Source of the DNA: Burkholderia sp. USMB20
Lineage (GTDB): Bacteria > Pseudomonadota > Gammaproteobacteria > Burkholderiales > Burkholderiaceae
NCBI RefSeq assembly: GCF_000949135.2
Contig: NZ_JTAN02000012.1
Location: 1 to 64,000, forward strand
DNA length: 64,000 nucleotides
Direction of reading: 5' to 3'
Shown one piece after another: positions 6,981-59,630 of the stretch; within the stretch, counting starts at the first letter, position 1, and each line of letters opens with the position of its first letter. A model generated the notes under the pieces. That model saw only the letters and a program-made list of their open reading frames with translations, did not search any database and had not been told where the DNA came from. Position numbers and translations under genes: made by a program.

Positions 6981-7817
6981 ATGCTGTCTACTGCCCTGAT
7001 CGTCTTTCGTGAAGTGCTCGAGGCCGCGCTGGTGGTCTCGATCGTGATGGCCGCCACGAAGGGCGTGCCGCGGCGCGGCTGGTGGGTCGGCGGCGGGCTC
7101 GTCGGCGGCGTGATCGGCGCCGGCCTGATCGCCGCGTTCGCCGACGTGATCTCGCAGTGGGCATCCGGCATGGGGCAGGAAGTCTTCAACGCGGGCGTGA
7201 TGTTCGTCGCGACGCTGATGCTCGCGTGGCATTGCATCTGGATGAGCCGCCACGGCCGCGAGATGGCGCTGCACATGGGCGAGGTCGGGCGGGCCGTCGC
7301 GGCCGGCAGCCGGCCGCTGACGGGGCTCGCGATCGTGGTCGGCGTCGCGGTATTGCGCGAAGGCTCCGAGGCCGTGCTGTTCCTGTACGGCATCGCGGCG
7401 GGCGATCCGGGACAGACGCCGCAGATGATCGTCGGCGGGCTGCTCGGCGTGCTGGGCGGCGCCGGGCTCGGTTATGCGATGTATGCGGGCCTGCTGCAGA
7501 TTCCGCTCAAGCGCCTGTTTTCCGTCACCAATGCGCTGATCGTGCTGCTCGCGGCAGGGATGGCGAGCCAGTGCGTCGGCTTCCTGCTTGCCGCGGGCCT
7601 CGTGCCGTCGTGGGGCGACGCGGTCTGGGATACCTCGTGGCTGCTCAAGGAAACGAGCATCGTCGGCAAGGCGCTGCATACGTTGATCGGCTATACCGCG
7701 CGTCCGGCGGGGATCCAGATCGCCGCGTACCTGGTCACACTGGTTGCGATCGTCGTGCTCGCGCGGCTCGTCGGCCGGCCCCGGACGGTCGTGCCGCCGC
7801 CGCGGCCCGTCGCCTGA
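6981..7817 (+). CDS. FTR1-family high-affinity iron permease
   Basis: A 278-aa membrane protein with about seven predicted transmembrane helices. Two REXXE iron-binding motifs, the signature of the family, are visible: REVLEAALVVS at the N-terminus and REGSEAVLFLYG in the fourth helix region. It imports iron across the inner membrane together with the preceding cupredoxin. Full FtrABCD systems also contain P19 and a ferredoxin-like protein and EfeUOB a peroxidase; none is encoded here. A strong hairpin terminator follows. Confidence 0.93.
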   Translation: MLSTALIVFREVLEAALVVSIVMAATKGVPRRGWWVGGGLVGGVIGAGLIAAFADVISQWASGMGQEVFNAGVMFVATLMLAWHCIWMSRHGREMALHMGEVGRAVAAGSRPLTGLAIVVGVAVLREGSEAVLFLYGIAAGDPGQTPQMIVGGLLGVLGGAGLGYAMYAGLLQIPLKRLFSVTNALIVLLAAGMASQCVGFLLAAGLVPSWGDAVWDTSWLLKETSIVGKALHTLIGYTARPAGIQIAAYLVTLVAIVVLARLVGRPRTVVPPPRPVA

Positions 7818-51112: not shown

Positions 51113-52081
51113 ATGAACGTCGATTCGTCCTCCCCAGCCACCCGCGGCCGCGGCCGCAAGATCTGGTCGGGCACCCGCCCCGTGATCGCGTACGGGATGC
51201 CGCCGCTCGGCTGGCGCGACCTCTATCACCGCGCGCTGACGGTGAGCTGGCCCGTATTCTTCCTGTCGCTCGCGGTGCTGTTCCTGCTGCTCAACGGCGG
51301 CTTCGCGACGCTCTACCTGCTCGGCCACGCGCCGATCGCGAACCAGTCGCCGGCCGGGTTCGCCGGCGCGTTCTTCTTCAGCGTCGAGACACTCGCGACG
51401 GTCGGTTATGGCGACATGCATCCGCAGACCGTCTACGCGCACGTCGTCTCGACCTTCGAGATCTTCATCGGGATGTCGGGCATCGCGCTCGCGACCGGCC
51501 TCGTGTTCGCGCGCTTCTCGCGGCCGCAGGCGAAGATCCTGTTCGCGCGTTACGCGATCGTGCGTCCGCTGAACGGGCGGATGACGCTGATGGTGCGCGC
51601 CGCGAATGCGCGCCAGAACGTGATCGCCGAAGCGCAGGCGAAACTGCGGCTGATGCGCGTCGAAGGCACGCACGAGGGTTATATGCTGCGCAAGATCCAC
51701 GACCTGCCGCTCGTGCGCAACGAGCATCCGATCTTCCTGCTCGGCTGGAACCTGATGCACGTGATCGACGAAACGAGCCCGCTGTTCGGCGAGACGGCCG
51801 AGTCGCTCGCCGCGCGCGACGCGTCGCTGCTGATCACGATCGAGGGCTCCGACGAGACGACCGCGCAAGTCATGCAGGCGCGCTACTCATGGACGCATGC
51901 GGAGATCCGCTGGCGTCACCGCTATGTCGACCTGATGCACGACGAAGGCGGCATCACGCACATCGACTACACGCATTTTCACGAAGTCGTGCCGGTCGAC
52001 ACCGATACGGACGAGCGCGGCTCGCCGGGCGTGGTGGTCGAGGCCGGCACGGCCGCGCATACGCCCGGGCCGGCTGCATGA
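51113..52081 (+). CDS. Inward-rectifier potassium channel KirBac-type
   Basis: 322 aa. A slide helix, two transmembrane helices flanking the pore helix and filter (SVETLATVGYGDMHPQTVY) and a large cytoplasmic immunoglobulin-like domain (ANARQNVIAEAQAKLRLMR; RNEHPIFLLGWNLMHVIDE; EGSDETTAQVMQARY). It resembles KirBac1.1 of B. pseudomallei very closely; WH/HYVDLM motifs are also kept. It is a single-gene unit, with the GST gene converging from the right. Confidence 0.96.
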   Translation: MNVDSSSPATRGRGRKIWSGTRPVIAYGMPPLGWRDLYHRALTVSWPVFFLSLAVLFLLLNGGFATLYLLGHAPIANQSPAGFAGAFFFSVETLATVGYGDMHPQTVYAHVVSTFEIFIGMSGIALATGLVFARFSRPQAKILFARYAIVRPLNGRMTLMVRAANARQNVIAEAQAKLRLMRVEGTHEGYMLRKIHDLPLVRNEHPIFLLGWNLMHVIDETSPLFGETAESLAARDASLLITIEGSDETTAQVMQARYSWTHAEIRWRHRYVDLMHDEGGITHIDYTHFHEVVPVDTDTDERGSPGVVVEAGTAAHTPGPAA

Positions 52082-52770: not shown

Positions 52771-53233
52771 CGCGCCTCCGCGTATGGGTGTGCGTGTCGG
52801 GTCGGTGGATGCTCAAGCGTACCCGAGCGGGAGAGGTTCGGACAGGGGCGGACGGCGAGAATGGCGGAGCCTGGCGCGGGCGCGTGTCGTGCGTGTCCGG
52901 GCGGATGCGGGCGGGTAGGGAATTTCCCGCAAAGCCTTGTATGGCGGAAGTTCATGAATTAACTAGTCATTAAAGAACTAGTTTGAGATTGACGTATGCG
53001 TGCTCGGCTGAAGCGGTCACGACCGTGCTGTTCCACGGCTTTGCAGCAGCGTCGTCGGCTGCCCGCACGAGCCCGGACGATGGCCGTCGGCGGGGCGCGA
53101 AACGTGGAAACCGGGTGACCCTGCGCGGGTCGACCGAATGACTGAATTCAAGGCGATGCGATCGTATTCGGCGAGTCAGGCGCTGCGTGATGCGCGGCGT
53201 GCCGGTTCGAGCGCGCACGGAGAACGGCAACGA
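52771..53233. other. Intergenic region before the acetyltransferase (463 bp)
   Basis: AACTAGT (52961-52967) and ACTAGTT (52977-52983) form an inverted repeat around nine AT-rich bases, which may be an operator or promoter. The rest is mixed, and no gene is evident; an open frame from 53138 merely extends the acetyltransferase. Confidence 0.45.
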
Positions 53234-53791
53234 ATGGCGAACGACGATCGCACCACGATCATTCCCCGGCGCACGCCGGAATCGGCCGCGATGCGCGCCG
53301 AGCTCGAGCGGACGATGGCGATCACCGCGCGGCTCAACCGTCTGACGTTCGACGATGCGGACGACGTCCGGACATTGTTCGGAGAACTGATCGGAAGGGC
53401 GATGGACGACGGTTTTCTGCTGATCCCGCCGTTTTATGCGACGGGCGGCGCCGATACGCGGATCGGCCGCAACGTGTTCATCAACCAGAACTGCACGTTC
53501 TATGACCTCGGCGGCCTCGACATCGGCGACGACGTGATGATCGGGCCGAACGTCAGTCTCATCACGTCGGGCCATCCGGTCGAGCCGTCCCGCCGGCGCG
53601 ACGCCGTCGTCGCCCGGCCGATCGTGATCGGGAGCAACGTGTGGATCGGCGCGGGTGCGACGATCATCGGCGGCGTGACGGTCGGCGAGAACTCGGTTGT
53701 CGGCGCGGGTGCCGTCGTGAAGCGCGACGTCCCGCCGAATACGCTGGTTGGCGGAAACCCGGCGCGGATCATCCGTTCGATTGCCGAGTGA
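53234..53791 (+). CDS. Maltose/galactoside O-acetyltransferase-like hexapeptide enzyme
   Basis: About 185 aa. A helical N-terminus (TPESAAMRAELERTMAITARLN; FDDADDVRTLFGELIG) precedes the left-handed beta-helix with the conserved NQNCTFYDLGGLDIGDDVMIGPNV, the catalytic histidine in TSGHPVEP and VWIGAGATIIGGVTVGENSVVGAGAVVKRDVPPNTLVGGNPAR. The family transfers acetyl groups to sugars. I take ATG 53234; the frame is open from 53138. Confidence 0.9.
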   Translation: MANDDRTTIIPRRTPESAAMRAELERTMAITARLNRLTFDDADDVRTLFGELIGRAMDDGFLLIPPFYATGGADTRIGRNVFINQNCTFYDLGGLDIGDDVMIGPNVSLITSGHPVEPSRRRDAVVARPIVIGSNVWIGAGATIIGGVTVGENSVVGAGAVVKRDVPPNTLVGGNPARIIRSIAE

Positions 53792-53819
53792 CGGCGCTTG
53801 CGGGCGCCGTCCGCTTCGG

Positions 53820-54490
53820 CGCGGATGTGGACAACCGGGTTTCCGCCCACTCGAAACGCTGTGGATTCGAACGGTGAGCGTGCGTCCGGAGGCCGAATTT
53901 GCGGGGCTTTCCGGCATCCGGCGCCGATCGCGGGCAGGTGCGTGAACCGACGTTGCCGCAGCGCCCGCGATGAATTTTTTCGCCGCGTCGGTTGTGGATA
54001 TCCCGGCCTCGAAACCACTCGGCAGACTGTGCATTTCACCGGTGAGTGCGGCCGGATGCGCGATGCAGGGTGTGGACAACCGGGAATCGCGACGACGAAA
54101 AATGCTGTGCCTTTGACCGGTGAGCGCCGCCGACCGATCGCGCGTGAGACTTGCCTGGTGCGGACTTCCGGGCGTCGCACGAAATCCGGAGCGCCGCGCA
54201 TTCTAACGGCGAGTGCGGATCGGCGATAGAGCCGCGCACGCATCGCGGTGTGGATAACCTGCCGGGGAATTCACTCGAAGCGCTGTGTATTTCAATGGTG
54301 CGCGTCGGTACCCGGACGGGCCAGGTGTCGACTTGCGTGCCCGTTCCCGATCTTCGACGCGGCTTCGGGGTCGCGCATTCTAACCGCACACGCGATCGCG
54401 CGTGCCATTCGCGTGCTTGCCGCGATGTGGATATCCGGTCGCCTAAAGCAGTCGACGTGCTGTGTCTTTCGGTGGAGAGGGCGCGCGCGT
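53820..54490 (+). repeat. Block 1: diverged ~90-bp repeats in plus orientation
   Basis: At least five clear copies of TGTGGA(T/C)A(A/T)...CTCGAAACGCTGTG.ATT...GGTGAG, with the 9-mer at 53826, 53993, 54071, 54249 and 54426; gaps of about 78-180 hide decayed copies (for example GTGCGGACTTCCGG at 54157). The 9-mer at 54249-54257 is TGTGGATAA, whose complement TTATCCACA is the exact E. coli DnaA-box consensus. Confidence 0.85.
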
Positions 54491-54577
54491 GCTGCTCTGC
54501 CGCGTCGGTGCGACTGCGGATGCGTGGGCTTCGGCGTGGTTTGCATGTGCTGCCGGTCACGCCTGAATCGGCGCTTT

Positions 54578-55117
54578 CGTGCGACACCGTGCCTTCGCTC
54601 ACCATCGAATTTCACAGTGTTCCGAGTGGTCGCGGGTCGAGCTATCCACACCCGAATCGGCACCCTCGTTCGACTGCCGTGCCGTCGCTCACCGTCGAAT
54701 TTCATAGGGTTCCGAGTGGTCGCGGATCGAGCTATCCACACCCGAATCGGTACCCTCGTTCGACTGCCGTGCCGTCGCTCACCGTCGAATTTCACAGTGT
54801 TCCGAGTGGTCGCGGATCGAGCTATCCGCGCCCGAATCGGCGTCCTCGTTCGACTGCTGTGCTGTCGCTCACCGTTGAATTTCACAGCGTTCCGAGTGGT
54901 CGTGGATCGAGCTGTCCACACCCGAATCGGCACCCTCGTTCGACTGCCGTGCCGTCGCTCACCGTTGCAAGTCACAGCGTCTCGAGTGGTCGCGGATCGA
55001 ACTATCCACACCCGAATCGGCACCCTCATTCGATCGCCGTGCCGTCACTCACCGTTGCAAATCACGGCGTTTGGCGTTGTCGTGGGGCGGCCTGTTCGCA
55101 TCCGGATCAGCGCTCAC
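54578..55117 (-). repeat. Block 2: homogenised 90-bp tandem repeats in minus orientation
   Basis: Five full units start at 54601, 54691, 54781, 54871 and 54961, exactly 90 bp apart, with a part unit at 55051 and a decayed entrance at 54578. Units are nearly identical (ACCGTCGAATTTCACAG..., ...CGAGCTATCCACACCCG...). The CTATCCACA 9-mer is at 54642, 54732, 54912 (CTGTCCACA) and 55002; at 54822 it has decayed to CTATCCGCG. One more diverged copy is near 55157. Confidence 0.95.
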
Positions 55118-55389
55118 CGTCGAAATGCACAGCGTTTCGAGTCGTCGCGGGTTGGGCTGTCCACCCCCGGATCGGCATCCTTGTTCGATTGCGTGCCGAT
55201 GCTCATCATCGAAATTCACTGGATTTTCAGCGCCTGGTTGGGACGATATCCCACCCGTGCCGGCACCTCGTCCGGCGACGCGACTGCATGCGCCGATGAA
55301 CGCCAAGGCCGTGCGGGCGCTTGCGGAGGCGGGCCCATCCACACTGAAGTGCGCTGTCCCGCGTCGCCCGGACGCTCCGAAACGTCGCG

Positions 55390-55735
55390 AGGGCGGACGG
55401 CGGTGTGGATATCGCGCTGCCGAATCGAATCGCAAACCTGTGCATCCCACAGGTGAGGACGAACGCCGCGTCGTCGGGGCAGGAATCCGACGGTGTGGAT
55501 ATCTCCCGCCAACATCGACTCGCCGCGCTGTGAATTTCGACGGTGAGCGTCGGCATCCGCTCGAACCGCGGACCGATCGAGGTGTGGACATCCGGCCTCC
55601 GGCTCGACTCGAAACCCTGTGCAACCGAATGGTGAGCGCGCGGGCCAGCCCGAAACGCAGCCCCGGCATTGTGGACATCCCACACCCGCGACCAATCCGA
55701 ACGCTGTGCATTCGATGGGTGAGGGCTCGCCCGTT
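55390..55735 (+). repeat. Block 3: diverged ~90-bp repeats again in plus orientation
   Basis: The 9-mer occurs at 55404 and 55494 (TGTGGATAT), 55583 and 55670 (TGTGGACAT): spacings 90, 89 and 87 bp. Each is followed by the CTGTG...GGTGAG half of the unit. Confidence 0.9.
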
Positions 55736-56057
55736 CCGCCACCCGAGCCCTTGCCGCACGGCCTGCGAGCGCCCGCCGCCGCGCCCGCGGTCCGCCTCCC
55801 GCGCATTCCGGCCTTTTCGAGGCAACCCGCCTGCCCACCCCGACACGCCCCGAACAGCCGCCCGCCACCCCGCGCGAAAAATCTCTCGATTTCCGACCGA
55901 AACCTGCGCAGTTTTTCTCGCTCCGGCGTCATCCGAGCAAGATGAGAAAAAACTTTCTCGTCTCCCCGCGAAAAAATAGAGCCATCCAGCCGCAGCCCGG
56001 CCGGCGTCGCCCGACGCCCCGTGCGCGGCCCAGAACACACAATCAGGAGACATCCCC

Positions 56058-59000
56058 ATGACCGCCCGCCTGCCCGTCGACGGCACGCCCGCTCTATCCG
56101 ACTACCGCCTGACCGACAACCTGACCGCCACGCGCGGCCGGATCTTCCTGACCGGCACGCAGGCGCTGGTCCGCCTGCTGCTGATGCAGCGCGCAGCCGA
56201 TACCGCGCAGGGCCTGAACACGGCCGGCTTCGTCAGCGGCTACCGCGGCTCGCCGCTCGGGATGGTCGACCAGCAGCTGTGGAAGGCGAAGAAACTGCTC
56301 GACGGCAGCGGCGTGCGCTTCCTGCCCGCGATCAACGAGGAACTCGGCGGCACCGCCGTGCTCGGCACGCAGCGCGTCGAGGCGGACCCGGAGCGCACCG
56401 TCGATGGCGTGTACGCGATGTGGTACGGCAAGGGTCCCGGCGTCGACCGCGCCGGCGACGCGCTGAAGCACGGCAACGCATACGGTTCGTCGCCGCACGG
56501 CGGCGTGCTGGTGGTGGCCGGCGACGACCATGGCTGCGTGTCGTCGTCGATGCCGCACCAGAGCGACTTCGCGATGATCGCGTGGCACATGCCGGTCGTG
56601 AACCCGTCGAACATCGCCGACATGCTGGAGTTCGGCCTGTACGGCTGGGCGCTGTCGCGCTACTCGGGCGCATGGGTCGGCTTCAAGGCGATCTCGGAGA
56701 CCGTCGAATCGGGCTCGACCGTCGATCTCGACGCGCTGCAGACGCAATGGCCGGCGCCGGCGGGCTTCACGCCGCCGGCGGGCGGCCTGCACAACCGCTG
56801 GCCCGACCTGCCGAGCCTCACGATCGAAGCGCGCCTCGCCGCGAAGCTGGACGCGGTGCGCCACTTCGCGCGCACCAACAGCATCGACAAATGGATCGCG
56901 CCGAGCGCGCACGCGAACGTCGGCATCGTCACGTGCGGCAAGGCGCACCTCGACCTGATGGAGGCGCTGCGCCGGCTCGACCTCACCGTCGCCGACCTGG
57001 AAGCGGCCGGCGTGCGGATCTACAAGGTCGGCCTGTCGTATCCGCTCGAGATGACACGGATCGAAACCTTCGTCGACGGCCTGTCGGAAGTGCTCGTCAT
57101 CGAAGAGAAGGGTCCGGTGATCGAGCAGCAGATCAAGGACTACCTGTACAACCGCGCGGACGGTGCGCGCCCGCGCGTGCTCGGCAAGCACGACGCCGAA
57201 GGCGCGTGCCTGCTGTCCGAACTCGGCGAGCTGCGCCCGTCGCGGATCCTGCCGGTGTTCGCCACCTGGCTCGCGCGGCACAAGCCGGCGCTCGACCGGC
57301 GCGAGCGCGTCGTCGATCTCGTCGCGCCGCAGATCCTGTCGAACGAGGCGGACGCGGTGAAGCGCACGCCGTACTTCTGCTCAGGCTGCCCGCACAACAC
57401 GTCGACGAAGGTGCCGGAAGGCTCGATCGCGCAGGCCGGCATCGGCTGCCACTTCATGGCGTCGTGGATGGAGCGCGACACGACGGGCCTGATCCAGATG
57501 GGCGGCGAGGGCGTCGACTGGGCCGCGCACGCGATGTTCACCAACACGAAGCACGTGTTCCAGAACCTCGGCGACGGCACCTACTTCCATTCAGGCATTC
57601 TCGCGATCCGCCAGGCGGTCGCCGCGAAAGCGAACATCACGTACAAGATCCTCTACAACGACGCAGTCGCGATGACGGGCGGCCAGCCGGTCGACGGCAG
57701 CATCTCGGTGCCGCAGATCGCGCGGCAGGTCGAGGCGGAAGGCGTGTCGCGCTTCGTCGTGGTGTCCGACGAACCGGAGAAGTACGACGGTCATCACGGG
57801 CTGTTCCCGAAGGGCACGACGTTCCATCACCGCAGCGAACTCGACGCGGTGCAGCGCGAGCTGCGCGAGACGCCGGGCGTCACCGTGCTGATCTACGACC
57901 AGACCTGCGCGGCCGAGAAGCGCCGCCGCCGCAAGAAGGGCGAATTCCCCGACCCGGACAAGCGGCTGTTCATCAACGACGCCGTATGCGAAGGCTGCGG
58001 CGACTGCGGCGTGCAGTCGAACTGCCTGTCGGTCGAGCCGCTCGAGACGCCGCTCGGCCGCAAGCGCCGCATCGACCAGTCGTCGTGCAACAAGGACTAC
58101 TCGTGCGTGAACGGCTTCTGCCCGAGCTTCGTGACGGTCGAAGGCGCGGCGCTGAAGAAGGCCGCGGGCGCGGCGTTCGACGAAGCCGCGCTCGCCGTGC
58201 GCGTCGACGCGCTGCCGGTGCCCGCGACCCATCTCGACGCGGCGCCGTACGACATGCTGGTCACGGGCGTGGGCGGCACGGGCGTCGTGACGGTCGGCGC
58301 GCTGATCAGCATGGCCGCGCACCTCGAAGGCAAGAGCGCGTCGGTGCTCGACTTCATGGGCTTCGCGCAGAAGGGCGGCTCGGTGCTGTCGTTCGTGCGG
58401 ATCGCGTCGAGCGACCGGTGGCTGAACCAGGTGCGCATCGACACGCAGCAGGCCGACGTGCTGCTCGCGTGCGACATGGTCGTCGGCGCGAGCGCCGAGG
58501 CGCTGCAGACGGTGCGCCACGAGCGCACGCGGATCGTGGTCAACACGCACCGGATTCCGAACGCGTCGTTCGTGCAGAACCCCGACGCGAACCTGCACGC
58601 GGATGCGCTGCTCGAAAAAATGCATCACGCGGCCGGCGACGGCTACCTGTCGAGCTGCGACGCGCAGGCGCTCGCCGCGAAATTCCTCGGCGACTCGATC
58701 GGCGCGAACATCCTGATGCTCGGCTACGCGTGGCAGCTCGGCCTCGTGCCGGTGTCGCTCGCCGCGATGATGCGCGCGATCGAGCTGAACAACGTCGCGG
58801 TGCCGATGAACAAGCTCGCGTTCGCGATCGGCCGGATGGCGGCCGGCGACGCGGCGGGCCTCGACGCATTGTGGAACGCGCGTCACGCGGTGGCCGTGCA
58901 GGCCGCGCCGGAGACGCTCGCCGAGCTGATCGCCGATCGCGAAGCGCGCCTCGACGCCTACGGCGGCGTGCGTTACGTCGAGCGCTACCGCGCACTGGTG

Positions 59001-59630
59001 AACGCGGCGCGCGCGAAGGGCGACGATGCGCTGACGCGCGCGGTCGCGACGACGTTCTACCGGTTACTCGCGGTGAAGGACGAATACGAGGTTGCCCGGC
59101 TGTATGCGGACGGCGCGTTCCGCACGGCGCTCGAAGCGCAGTTCGAAGGCGTGCCGGGGCAGGACTATCGCGTGAAGTTCAACCTGGCGCCGCCGACGGT
59201 CGCGAAGGCCGGCCGCGACGGCAGCGTGCCGAAGAAGCGCGTGTTCGGCCAGTGGATGTGGCCGGTGCTCGGCACGCTCGCGCGCGTGCGCAGCCTGCGC
59301 GGCACGTGGCTCGATCCGTTCGACCGCACGGCCGAGCGCCGGATGGAGCGCGCGCTCGCCGACGACTACGAAACCACGCTCACGCGCGCGCTCGCCGCGG
59401 TGACCGCCGGCAATGCGGCGCAGGTCGCGCAACTGGCAGATCTTCACGCTCGCGTGCGCGGCTTCGGTCACGTGAAGGTGCGCAACCTCGCGGGCGTGAA
59501 GCGTGCGGAGCGCGAGCTCGCGCTGCAGCTCGGCATCGACGCGGCGACGAGTGCGGCAGTGCAGCACGCGCTCGACGAGATGAAGGGCGCGGGAATGCTG
59601 AAGGGGATTCCGGTCGTCGTCGCGAAGTAA
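56058..59630 (+). CDS. Indolepyruvate ferredoxin oxidoreductase family protein (fused subunits)
   Basis: 1190 aa combining the IorA and IorB parts. It begins DNLTATRGRIFLTGTQALVRLLL, with the 2-oxoacid:ferredoxin oxidoreductase alpha domain (GFVSGYRGSPLGMVD), the TPP-binding domain (CPHNTSTKVPEGSIAQAGIGCHF in part) and cysteine-rich Fe-S motifs (CEGCGDCGVQSNC; CNKDYSCVNGFCPS), then the gamma domain (VTGVGGTGVVTVGALIS). It oxidatively decarboxylates aryl-pyruvates to acyl-CoA, with ferredoxin as acceptor, in aromatic amino-acid breakdown. AGGAGA precedes the start. It has no operon partners in the window. Confidence 0.94.
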   Translation: MTARLPVDGTPALSDYRLTDNLTATRGRIFLTGTQALVRLLLMQRAADTAQGLNTAGFVSGYRGSPLGMVDQQLWKAKKLLDGSGVRFLPAINEELGGTAVLGTQRVEADPERTVDGVYAMWYGKGPGVDRAGDALKHGNAYGSSPHGGVLVVAGDDHGCVSSSMPHQSDFAMIAWHMPVVNPSNIADMLEFGLYGWALSRYSGAWVGFKAISETVESGSTVDLDALQTQWPAPAGFTPPAGGLHNRWPDLPSLTIEARLAAKLDAVRHFARTNSIDKWIAPSAHANVGIVTCGKAHLDLMEALRRLDLTVADLEAAGVRIYKVGLSYPLEMTRIETFVDGLSEVLVIEEKGPVIEQQIKDYLYNRADGARPRVLGKHDAEGACLLSELGELRPSRILPVFATWLARHKPALDRRERVVDLVAPQILSNEADAVKRTPYFCSGCPHNTSTKVPEGSIAQAGIGCHFMASWMERDTTGLIQMGGEGVDWAAHAMFTNTKHVFQNLGDGTYFHSGILAIRQAVAAKANITYKILYNDAVAMTGGQPVDGSISVPQIARQVEAEGVSRFVVVSDEPEKYDGHHGLFPKGTTFHHRSELDAVQRELRETPGVTVLIYDQTCAAEKRRRRKKGEFPDPDKRLFINDAVCEGCGDCGVQSNCLSVEPLETPLGRKRRIDQSSCNKDYSCVNGFCPSFVTVEGAALKKAAGAAFDEAALAVRVDALPVPATHLDAAPYDMLVTGVGGTGVVTVGALISMAAHLEGKSASVLDFMGFAQKGGSVLSFVRIASSDRWLNQVRIDTQQADVLLACDMVVGASAEALQTVRHERTRIVVNTHRIPNASFVQNPDANLHADALLEKMHHAAGDGYLSSCDAQALAAKFLGDSIGANILMLGYAWQLGLVPVSLAAMMRAIELNNVAVPMNKLAFAIGRMAAGDAAGLDALWNARHAVAVQAAPETLAELIADREARLDAYGGVRYVERYRALVNAARAKGDDALTRAVATTFYRLLAVKDEYEVARLYADGAFRTALEAQFEGVPGQDYRVKFNLAPPTVAKAGRDGSVPKKRVFGQWMWPVLGTLARVRSLRGTWLDPFDRTAERRMERALADDYETTLTRALAAVTAGNAAQVAQLADLHARVRGFGHVKVRNLAGVKRAERELALQLGIDAATSAAVQHALDEMKGAGMLKGIPVVVAK

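Follow-up and report, generated by a model that had tools for sequence, protein, structure and literature searches.

The DnaA box consensus is TT(A/T)TNCACA. In Bacillus subtilis and Streptomyces, intergenic groups of DnaA boxes lie outside oriC and are thought to titrate DnaA. How bacteria with several chromosomes avoid firing the main origin twice is, to our knowledge, understood in detail mainly from Escherichia coli and Vibrio. In E. coli, the datA locus is always close to oriC, has five boxes, requires an IHF site for activity, and depends for its function on boxes at set spacing (PMC4585315). DnaA-box clusters have been reported from the origins of Burkholderia cenocepacia, where oriC1 combines TTATCCACA boxes with clustered CTGTGCA 7-mers "of unknown significance" (PMC4948915), and the box-reading residues of B. 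cenocepacia DnaA are reportedly identical to those of E. coli (PMC4948915, S1 Fig legend). Vibrio cholerae carries crtS, a site on chromosome 1 that links the replication of its two chromosomes (PMC11711613).

The array described here (array 1) lies in a 64-kb window, the whole stretch of DNA that was analyzed, and is intergenic, between the end of a hexapeptide-repeat transferase gene (53791) and the start of a POR/DUF6537 gene (56058) that we take to be of the indolepyruvate ferredoxin oxidoreductase type. Like datA, it is a non-coding cluster of DnaA-box-like sites outside oriC, with 10 sites at no more than one mismatch in 1.9 kb. It also resembles datA in being near oriC on the main chromosome, a position known from relatives only, in which array 1 is 314–364 kb from the presumed oriC in six of seven genomes (G003, G009, G013, G036, G038, and G066). 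Unlike datA, with its five boxes and IHF site, the array consists of 18 units, each of them with two box-like elements and GGTGAGCG, and it has no IHF consensus. The IHF consensus is WATCAANNNNTTR, and no match at one mismatch or fewer was found in 53791–56057; membership in the datA class was rejected because the intergenic region has no IHF site. The analogy with datA drawn in the initial annotation therefore holds for layout and, roughly, for position, but not for membership, given the missing IHF site and two extra conserved elements. As in clusters of the B. subtilis type, several DnaA-box-like sites sit between genes outside oriC; unlike the B. subtilis and Streptomyces clusters, they form a regular bipartite module with 33–34 bp spacing, arranged in tandem in two origin-side arrays. 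Box 2 of the unit often includes the CTGTGCA 7-mer of B. cenocepacia oriC1, whereas the ~90-bp unit, GGTGAGCG, and an array ~250 kb from dnaA are not described in the text of that oriC1 account (PMC4948915). Titles and abstract openings retrieved for Burkholderia DnaA boxes, titration, ChIP-seq, and the letters of the unit describe neither this array nor in vivo binding of DnaA to such clusters in Burkholderia.

A sequence model (R1) built from 70 units, two of them window units, was used to search the window and identified 18 units of one module within 53823–55726 (Table 1). Sixteen have E values of 2.3e-8 or lower, and the remaining pair, at 54157 and 55197, is degenerate. Each unit is composed of box 1 (GWTRTCCACA), followed at 33–34 bp by box 2 (CTGTGNATTTC) and then by GGTGAGCG. 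Box 2 reads AAATNCACAG on the opposite strand, which is DnaA-box-like as well, and faces the same way as box 1. The majority consensus of the unit is nCGnTGTGGATATCCnGnCCCCGAAnCCACTCGAAACGCTGTGCATTTCAACGGTGAGCG, in which TGTGGATAT reads ATATCCACA on the opposite strand, one letter off the DnaA box TTATCCACA. Units 1–6 and 15–18 face rightward and units 7–14 leftward.

Table 1. Repeat units of array 1 and the genes on either side of it, in window coordinates.
Feature	Coordinates	Strand	Details
Hexapeptide-repeat transferase gene, upstream neighbor	53138..53791	+	Pfam Hexapep 4.8e-17
Unit 1	53823..53883	+	box 1 TTGTCCACA; R1 55.6 bits
Unit 2	53990..54051	+	box 1 ATATCCACA; R1 58.4 bits
Unit 3	54069..54129	+	box 1 TTGTCCACA; R1 45.7 bits
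Unit 4, degenerate	54157..54217	+	R1 16.0 bits, E 6e-4
Unit 5	54246..54306	+	box 1 exact TTATCCACA at 54249-54257; R1 50.5 bits
Unit 6	54423..54484	+	box 1 ATATCCACA; R1 42.4 bits
Unit 7, inverted block	54595..54653	-	R1 50.1 bits
Unit 8, inverted block	54683..54743	-	R1 44.7 bits
Unit 9, inverted block	54773..54833	-	box 1 degenerate, CTATCCGCG; R1 45.7 bits
Unit 10, inverted block	54864..54923	-	R1 53.4 bits
Unit 11, inverted block	54953..55013	-	R1 45.1 bits
Unit 12, inverted block	55043..55103	-	weak box 1; R1 30.2 bits
Unit 13, inverted	55110..55167	-	R1 54.6 bits
Unit 14, inverted, degenerate	55197..55251	-	R1 12.5 bits, E 0.008
Unit 15	55401..55460	+	box 1 ATATCCACA; R1 46.2 bits
Unit 16	55491..55552	+	box 1 ATATCCACA; R1 55.0 bits
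Unit 17	55581..55641	+	box 1 ATGTCCACA; R1 55.3 bits
Unit 18	55669..55726	+	box 1 ATGTCCACA; R1 48.6 bits
POR-domain (pyruvate ferredoxin oxidoreductase) gene, downstream neighbor	56058..59630	+	Pfam POR 3.4e-17, DUF6537 2.7e-51

The initial annotation had reported at least 13 DnaA-box-like sites in a ~90-bp repeat. All 13 lie where it placed them, 10 at no more than one mismatch to TTATCCACA and three (54912, 55583, and 55670) at two, and its exact consensus at 54249 is the sole exact TTATCCACA among them; counted as units, the number rises to 18. The sites it called plus carry TTATCCACA on the minus strand. Its period of ~90 bp is exact only within the inverted block, for six units (54595–55103), while spacing elsewhere is 65–178 bp. 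The 9-mer that it described is conserved, but is one of three conserved elements, the other two of which it had not described. The window contains 12 sites at one mismatch or fewer to TTATCCACA, against 2.02 expected and a highest value of 7 in 100 shuffles, and 10 of the 12 are inside the array. The second element, CTGTGNATTTCANCGGTGAG, is at least as striking as the 9-mer, with 14 matches at up to three mismatches against 0.04 expected. When the 9-mer alone was used as seed across the array regions of the window and of 30 loci from relatives, 294 TGTGGAYA sites with enough flank were recovered, and the second element followed at +33 or +34 in 270 of them (no more than four mismatches of 18 letters). 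Outside the unit, the 9-mer is nearly absent from these regions. The commonest forms of box 1 in the array family are ATATCCACA, TTGTCCACA, and ATGTCCACA, and exact TTATCCACA is exceptional.

The window was aligned to seven orthologous arrays, and substitution rates per aligned base were obtained for each part of the unit. The lowest rate of all parts is that of box 1 (0.089), followed by GGTGAGCG (0.115), box 2 (0.134, with one free position counted in), and CACTCGAAACG (0.189); the spacers (0.205), the stretch between the boxes (0.240), and the linker (0.264) are less conserved. These rates are to be read with the labels in mind, which were taken from the window's own units, picked for motif likeness, and conversion between units may depress them. 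Gap rates are similar across the unit (0.105–0.126). Because box 1 has the lowest rate, the 9-mer is not a mere passenger of the repeat. Loss of the 9-mer from homologous arrays that keep the rest of the unit had been named as a finding that would count against a DnaA function, and the opposite was observed, with box 1 at less than the rate of the spacers. A fortuitous match copied along with a repeat family, the other explanation offered initially, is likewise disfavored, since box 1, box 2, and GGTGAGCG all change more slowly than the spacers.

Two long open reading frames cross the array (54151–55299 and 54248–55456) and have no Pfam match, and spacings of 167, 178, and 89 bp are not divisible by three; a coding repeat was rejected on both grounds. 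Among 29 relatives' loci (L008–L037 without L010), which are partial, the transferase gene adjoins the array in 26 and the POR gene in 25. Both neighbors are present in 22 loci, and seven partial loci have one. An inward-rectifier potassium channel-type gene (Pfam IRK_C 3.2e-29) also occurs near the array, at 51113–52081 of the window.

Within the genus, sampled as one genome per species, 52 of 65 genomes have BLAST matches to the array and 13 have none. The downstream gene is present in all 13 array-less genomes. The 1.5 kb upstream of it contains no DnaA box at one mismatch or fewer and no unit in any of the 13, and loci L146 and L149 each have one weak three-mismatch match that is not unit-like. 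The array is thus dispensable for the genus as such. A one-mismatch unit pattern matched array-less genomes zero to six times each, scattered among the matches listed, a judgment made without the six matches of G053 and one of G051. The R1 search, with stricter filters than BLAST and no more than 17 candidates scored for any genome, identified the array in 36 of 299 family genomes, which all belong to one of the 25 genera sampled. Named genomes scanned for exact 20-mers returned 25 loci, of which 21 are from Burkholderia, including B. cenocepacia, B. dolosa, B. lata, B. stagnalis, and two loci on one B. anthina chromosome; the four single matches in unrelated bacteria look like chance. The count and orientation of units differ from genome to genome.

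We located dnaA in all 29 assemblies in which we looked for it. A listed BLAST match, short in G031, marks 22 of them as array-bearing, and all 22 carry dnaA and the array on one contig. Array 1 and dnaA are 215–285 kb apart in the 14 genomes with a computable distance (G003, G009, G010, G012, G013, G025, G027, G033, G036, G038, G043, G059, G064, and G065); the length of the contig entered the calculation if its start fell within the interval. A trio of exact TTATCCACA was presumed to mark oriC; in both genomes tested, G013 and G066, the minimum of the cumulative GC skew (90 and 125 kb, respectively, at 5-kb steps) falls at this trio. Origin distance is not fixed, as array 1 is about 480 kb from the presumed oriC in G010 and 811 kb from parS in G059, while the distance to dnaA is nearly fixed. 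Plain synteny alone could explain this near-constant distance. The interval between parS and dnaA is 208 kb in G010:C1 and 557 kb in G059:C1, compared to 94–137 kb in the 12 other genomes for which both were placed, which suggests inversions in these two, one breakpoint of which would fall between the origin and dnaA.

A smaller array of the same unit (array 2) was found in a different gene context, closer to the origin than array 1. The scan for CTGTGNATnnnnnCGGTGAG at one mismatch covered 24 genomes, 11 of them array-bearing, and the listed matches come from eight of the 11 (without G060, G063, and G064). Among these, G036, G043, and G066 have one further cluster of CTGTGNATnnnnnCGGTGAG matches besides array 1, on the replicon that carries dnaA, and G003 and G009 have single matches at that place; the listed matches include none there for G010, G013, and G025, and those on other replicons are isolated. 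The search for the unit elsewhere that had been proposed at the outset thus returned a second cluster nearer the origin, and many genome-wide copies unlinked to replication, which would have spoken against a DnaA role, were not seen, units clustering at arrays 1 and 2 only in the eight genomes listed. Of 30 loci from the array-2 region, each from a different genome, 26 contain a unit that R1 scores at 30 bits or more. In G003, G009, G013, G036, and G038, array 2 falls in the interval between the presumed oriC and dnaA, ~19–49 kb downstream of the latter. All R1 matches above 15.1 bits in ~700 kb of chromosome 1 sampled from G013 and G066, with some overlap and with array 1 outside the sample, belong to array 2. 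Its box 1 (n = 14) is ATATCCACA in seven units, TTATCCACA, TTATTCACA, and ATGTCCACA in two each, and TTGTCCACA in one. In our reading, array 2 appears to adjoin a sigma-factor-like open reading frame. Four closely spaced DnaA-box-like sites in alternating orientations (TTATCCAAA, TTATCCACT, TTATCCATA or TTATCCAGA, and TTATCCACA) were also observed 1.2–1.9 kb past array 2, at G013:C1:26706–26956 and G066:C1:74949–75199, and several genomes have them.

Box 1 keeps TRTCCACA, and box 2 keeps TNCACA with the fifth position free, as is the N of the consensus (A 112, C 143, T 84, and G 50 of 389, with this position left free in picking units). Judged from their letters, variation within the boxes tracks TT(A/T)TNCACA. 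Exact TTATCCACA occurs in 13 of 341 array 1 units and in 2 of 50 after thinning below 75% identity, and T1 and A3 avoid co-occurrence (Fisher p 5e-18 for all units and 5e-4 for the 50 thinned units). Given this avoidance and the rarity of TTATCCACA, the boxes seem adjusted away from the canonical form, or else a different protein reads them. We take the rare canonical 9-mer as a probable tuning to moderate affinity, which a reservoir would require, with another reader as the possible alternative. The genome-wide count of the 9-mer, also proposed initially, was obtained for the exact form: among the matches listed, 10 records contain 15–25 exact TTATCCACA per genome of 6.5–8.6 Mb, compared to 2–9 for the reversed control (G038 and G067 have identical coordinates and are probably one assembly). 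Array 1 accounts for one each in G009 and G036 and for none in G003, G010, G013, G038, and G066 among those matches. Weak partial R1 matches extending from box 1 to CTGTG (E 0.013–0.061) were found at canonical boxes in and around oriC. Around the origins of G013 and G066, CTGTG follows 6 of 19 boxes outside array 2 at 24–44 bp, five of the six at 32–34 bp. Support from these origin boxes is modest, because CTGTG is common at oriC anyway (11–12 per 600 bp) and the two genomes share orthologous sites.

Given the anatomy of the unit, the constraint on its boxes, a second array closer to the origin in which some boxes are canonical, and the placement on the dnaA replicon in relatives, we regard it as fairly probable that DnaA binds the modules of this non-coding, origin-linked cluster and is titrated by them, as has been proposed for datA and for the DnaA-box clusters of B. 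subtilis. Each unit would offer one good DnaA box (box 1) and a weaker, same-facing box 2 at 33–34 bp, and the 18 units together could hold tens of DnaA molecules. Copied soon after oriC, the array would double early in the cell cycle and sequester DnaA, and uptake by the doubled array would delay re-initiation. We infer the binding of DnaA, the number of molecules bound, and the effect on initiation from this arrangement. GGTGAGCG has no role under a model with DnaA only; it may bind a partner protein or lengthen the contact with DnaA.

A further layer may be added by methylation. A type III methylase of B. cenocepacia marks the fourth base of CACAG on one strand; the enzyme is widespread in the genus, and CACAG ends nearly every DnaA box of the origins (PMC7364216). 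In our data, all 21 exact boxes at the presumed oriC trio, at a pair ~45 kb beyond, and at a site upstream of dnaA read TTATCCACAG (orthologues of six sites in G003, G010, G013, and G066, with dnaA itself not located in G066). The CACAG ending is present in 1 of 14 exact boxes of the array-2 region, and two further exact boxes in the sampled regions, at 7201 in G013 and 155991 in G066, have no CACAG end. In array 1, a G comes directly after box 1 in 10 of 364 units (7 of 341 in a stricter set and 3 of 50 once thinned). For box 2, 409 of 417 units have CACAG; these units were picked for likeness to a CTGTG-containing core at up to four mismatches. The array may accordingly be a methylation-sorted DnaA sponge, in which each unit pairs a methylation-blind and a methylation-marked candidate DnaA site, although we consider this unlikely. 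Sister arrays would then differ after replication where units face one way, DnaA would be split between origin and sponge by methylation state, and the outcome would be a clock like that of Dam and SeqA made from a different methylase. Methylase mutants have nucleoids that are larger relative to cell size, and dnaA expression was up in one of two strains (PMC7364216). In exponential phase the mutants show normal growth, and a limited impact on replication was inferred in that study (PMC7364216), which argues against a strong role of methylation.

A neutral or selfish tandem repeat that included the 9-mer by accident would fit the partly 90-bp tandem structure of the inverted block and the variation in unit number and orientation between genomes. 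It is very improbable given that constraint is focused on three short elements, that clusters occur at just two origin-proximal places among the matches listed, and that neighbors are the same across relatives; the array also had no match in a phage collection and a plasmid collection, and a mobile element was rejected on this basis. A repetitive non-coding RNA, or a leader of the downstream gene, is suggested by the end of the array ~330 bp upstream of the start codon at 56058. RNAalifold, however, gave 0 conserved pairs over 70 units and Rfam no match to the array up to E 1, on which a structured RNA repeat was rejected; array 2 has different neighbors, and units in the window face both ways, so that we consider an RNA or leader very improbable as well.

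Two other explanations involve a protein bound at the unit. In one, the array would alter the nucleotide state of bound DnaA, by datA-like hydrolysis or DARS-like recharging, beyond holding it. The boxes arrayed near oriC and the within-unit spacing of 33–34 bp, which suggests a defined complex, are in its favor, as datA needs set box spacing; datA activity also requires an IHF site (PMC4585315), and with no WATCAANNNNTTR at one mismatch or fewer here this is quite unlikely. In the other, which we find somewhat unlikely, a different protein reads the unit (a nucleoid organizer, a segregation factor, or a chromosome-coupling initiator like RctB at Vibrio crtS), and the 9-mer would be a chance DnaA-box likeness or an auxiliary site. 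GGTGAGCG and CTGTGNATTTC are almost as constrained as box 1, canonical TTATCCACA is depleted, and GGTGAG is half of the chromosome-2 iteron CCCGAAAAnnCTCACC (PMC4948915), which was found in 8 of 8 array-bearing genomes. It was also found in nine of nine array-less genomes searched (of 13), so that array and iteron do not covary. The full iteron is missing from the unit, which has only the GGTGAG half, and in the alignment the second half is missing beside it; a link to chromosome-2 RepA through GGTGAG thus appears unsupported. A parS centromere was rejected, with GTTTCACGTGAAAC located elsewhere at two sites in each of 16 records. Like crtS of V. cholerae, the array is a chromosome 1 site that could couple the replication of two chromosomes; unlike crtS, it has many repeats and does not covary with chromosome-2 iterons. 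A second CTCACC-iteron cluster, mostly with 23-bp spacing, was observed on the same contig as the chromosome-2 origin iterons and ~133–186 kb from them (L154, G003:C3:~1847669; L155, G009:C2:~1499420; L159, G066:C2:~1875995), and could be an initiator-titrating cluster.

Whether titration sets the timing of initiation has long been debated. If the arrays hold DnaA, as in the titration reading that we favor, many Burkholderia would possess a DnaA reservoir that can be removed and counted, and the 52 genomes with the array and the 13 without it would provide a natural comparison for whether titration sets initiation timing. The CACAG pattern would in addition give a methylation handle on this reservoir, for which mutants are already in the literature.
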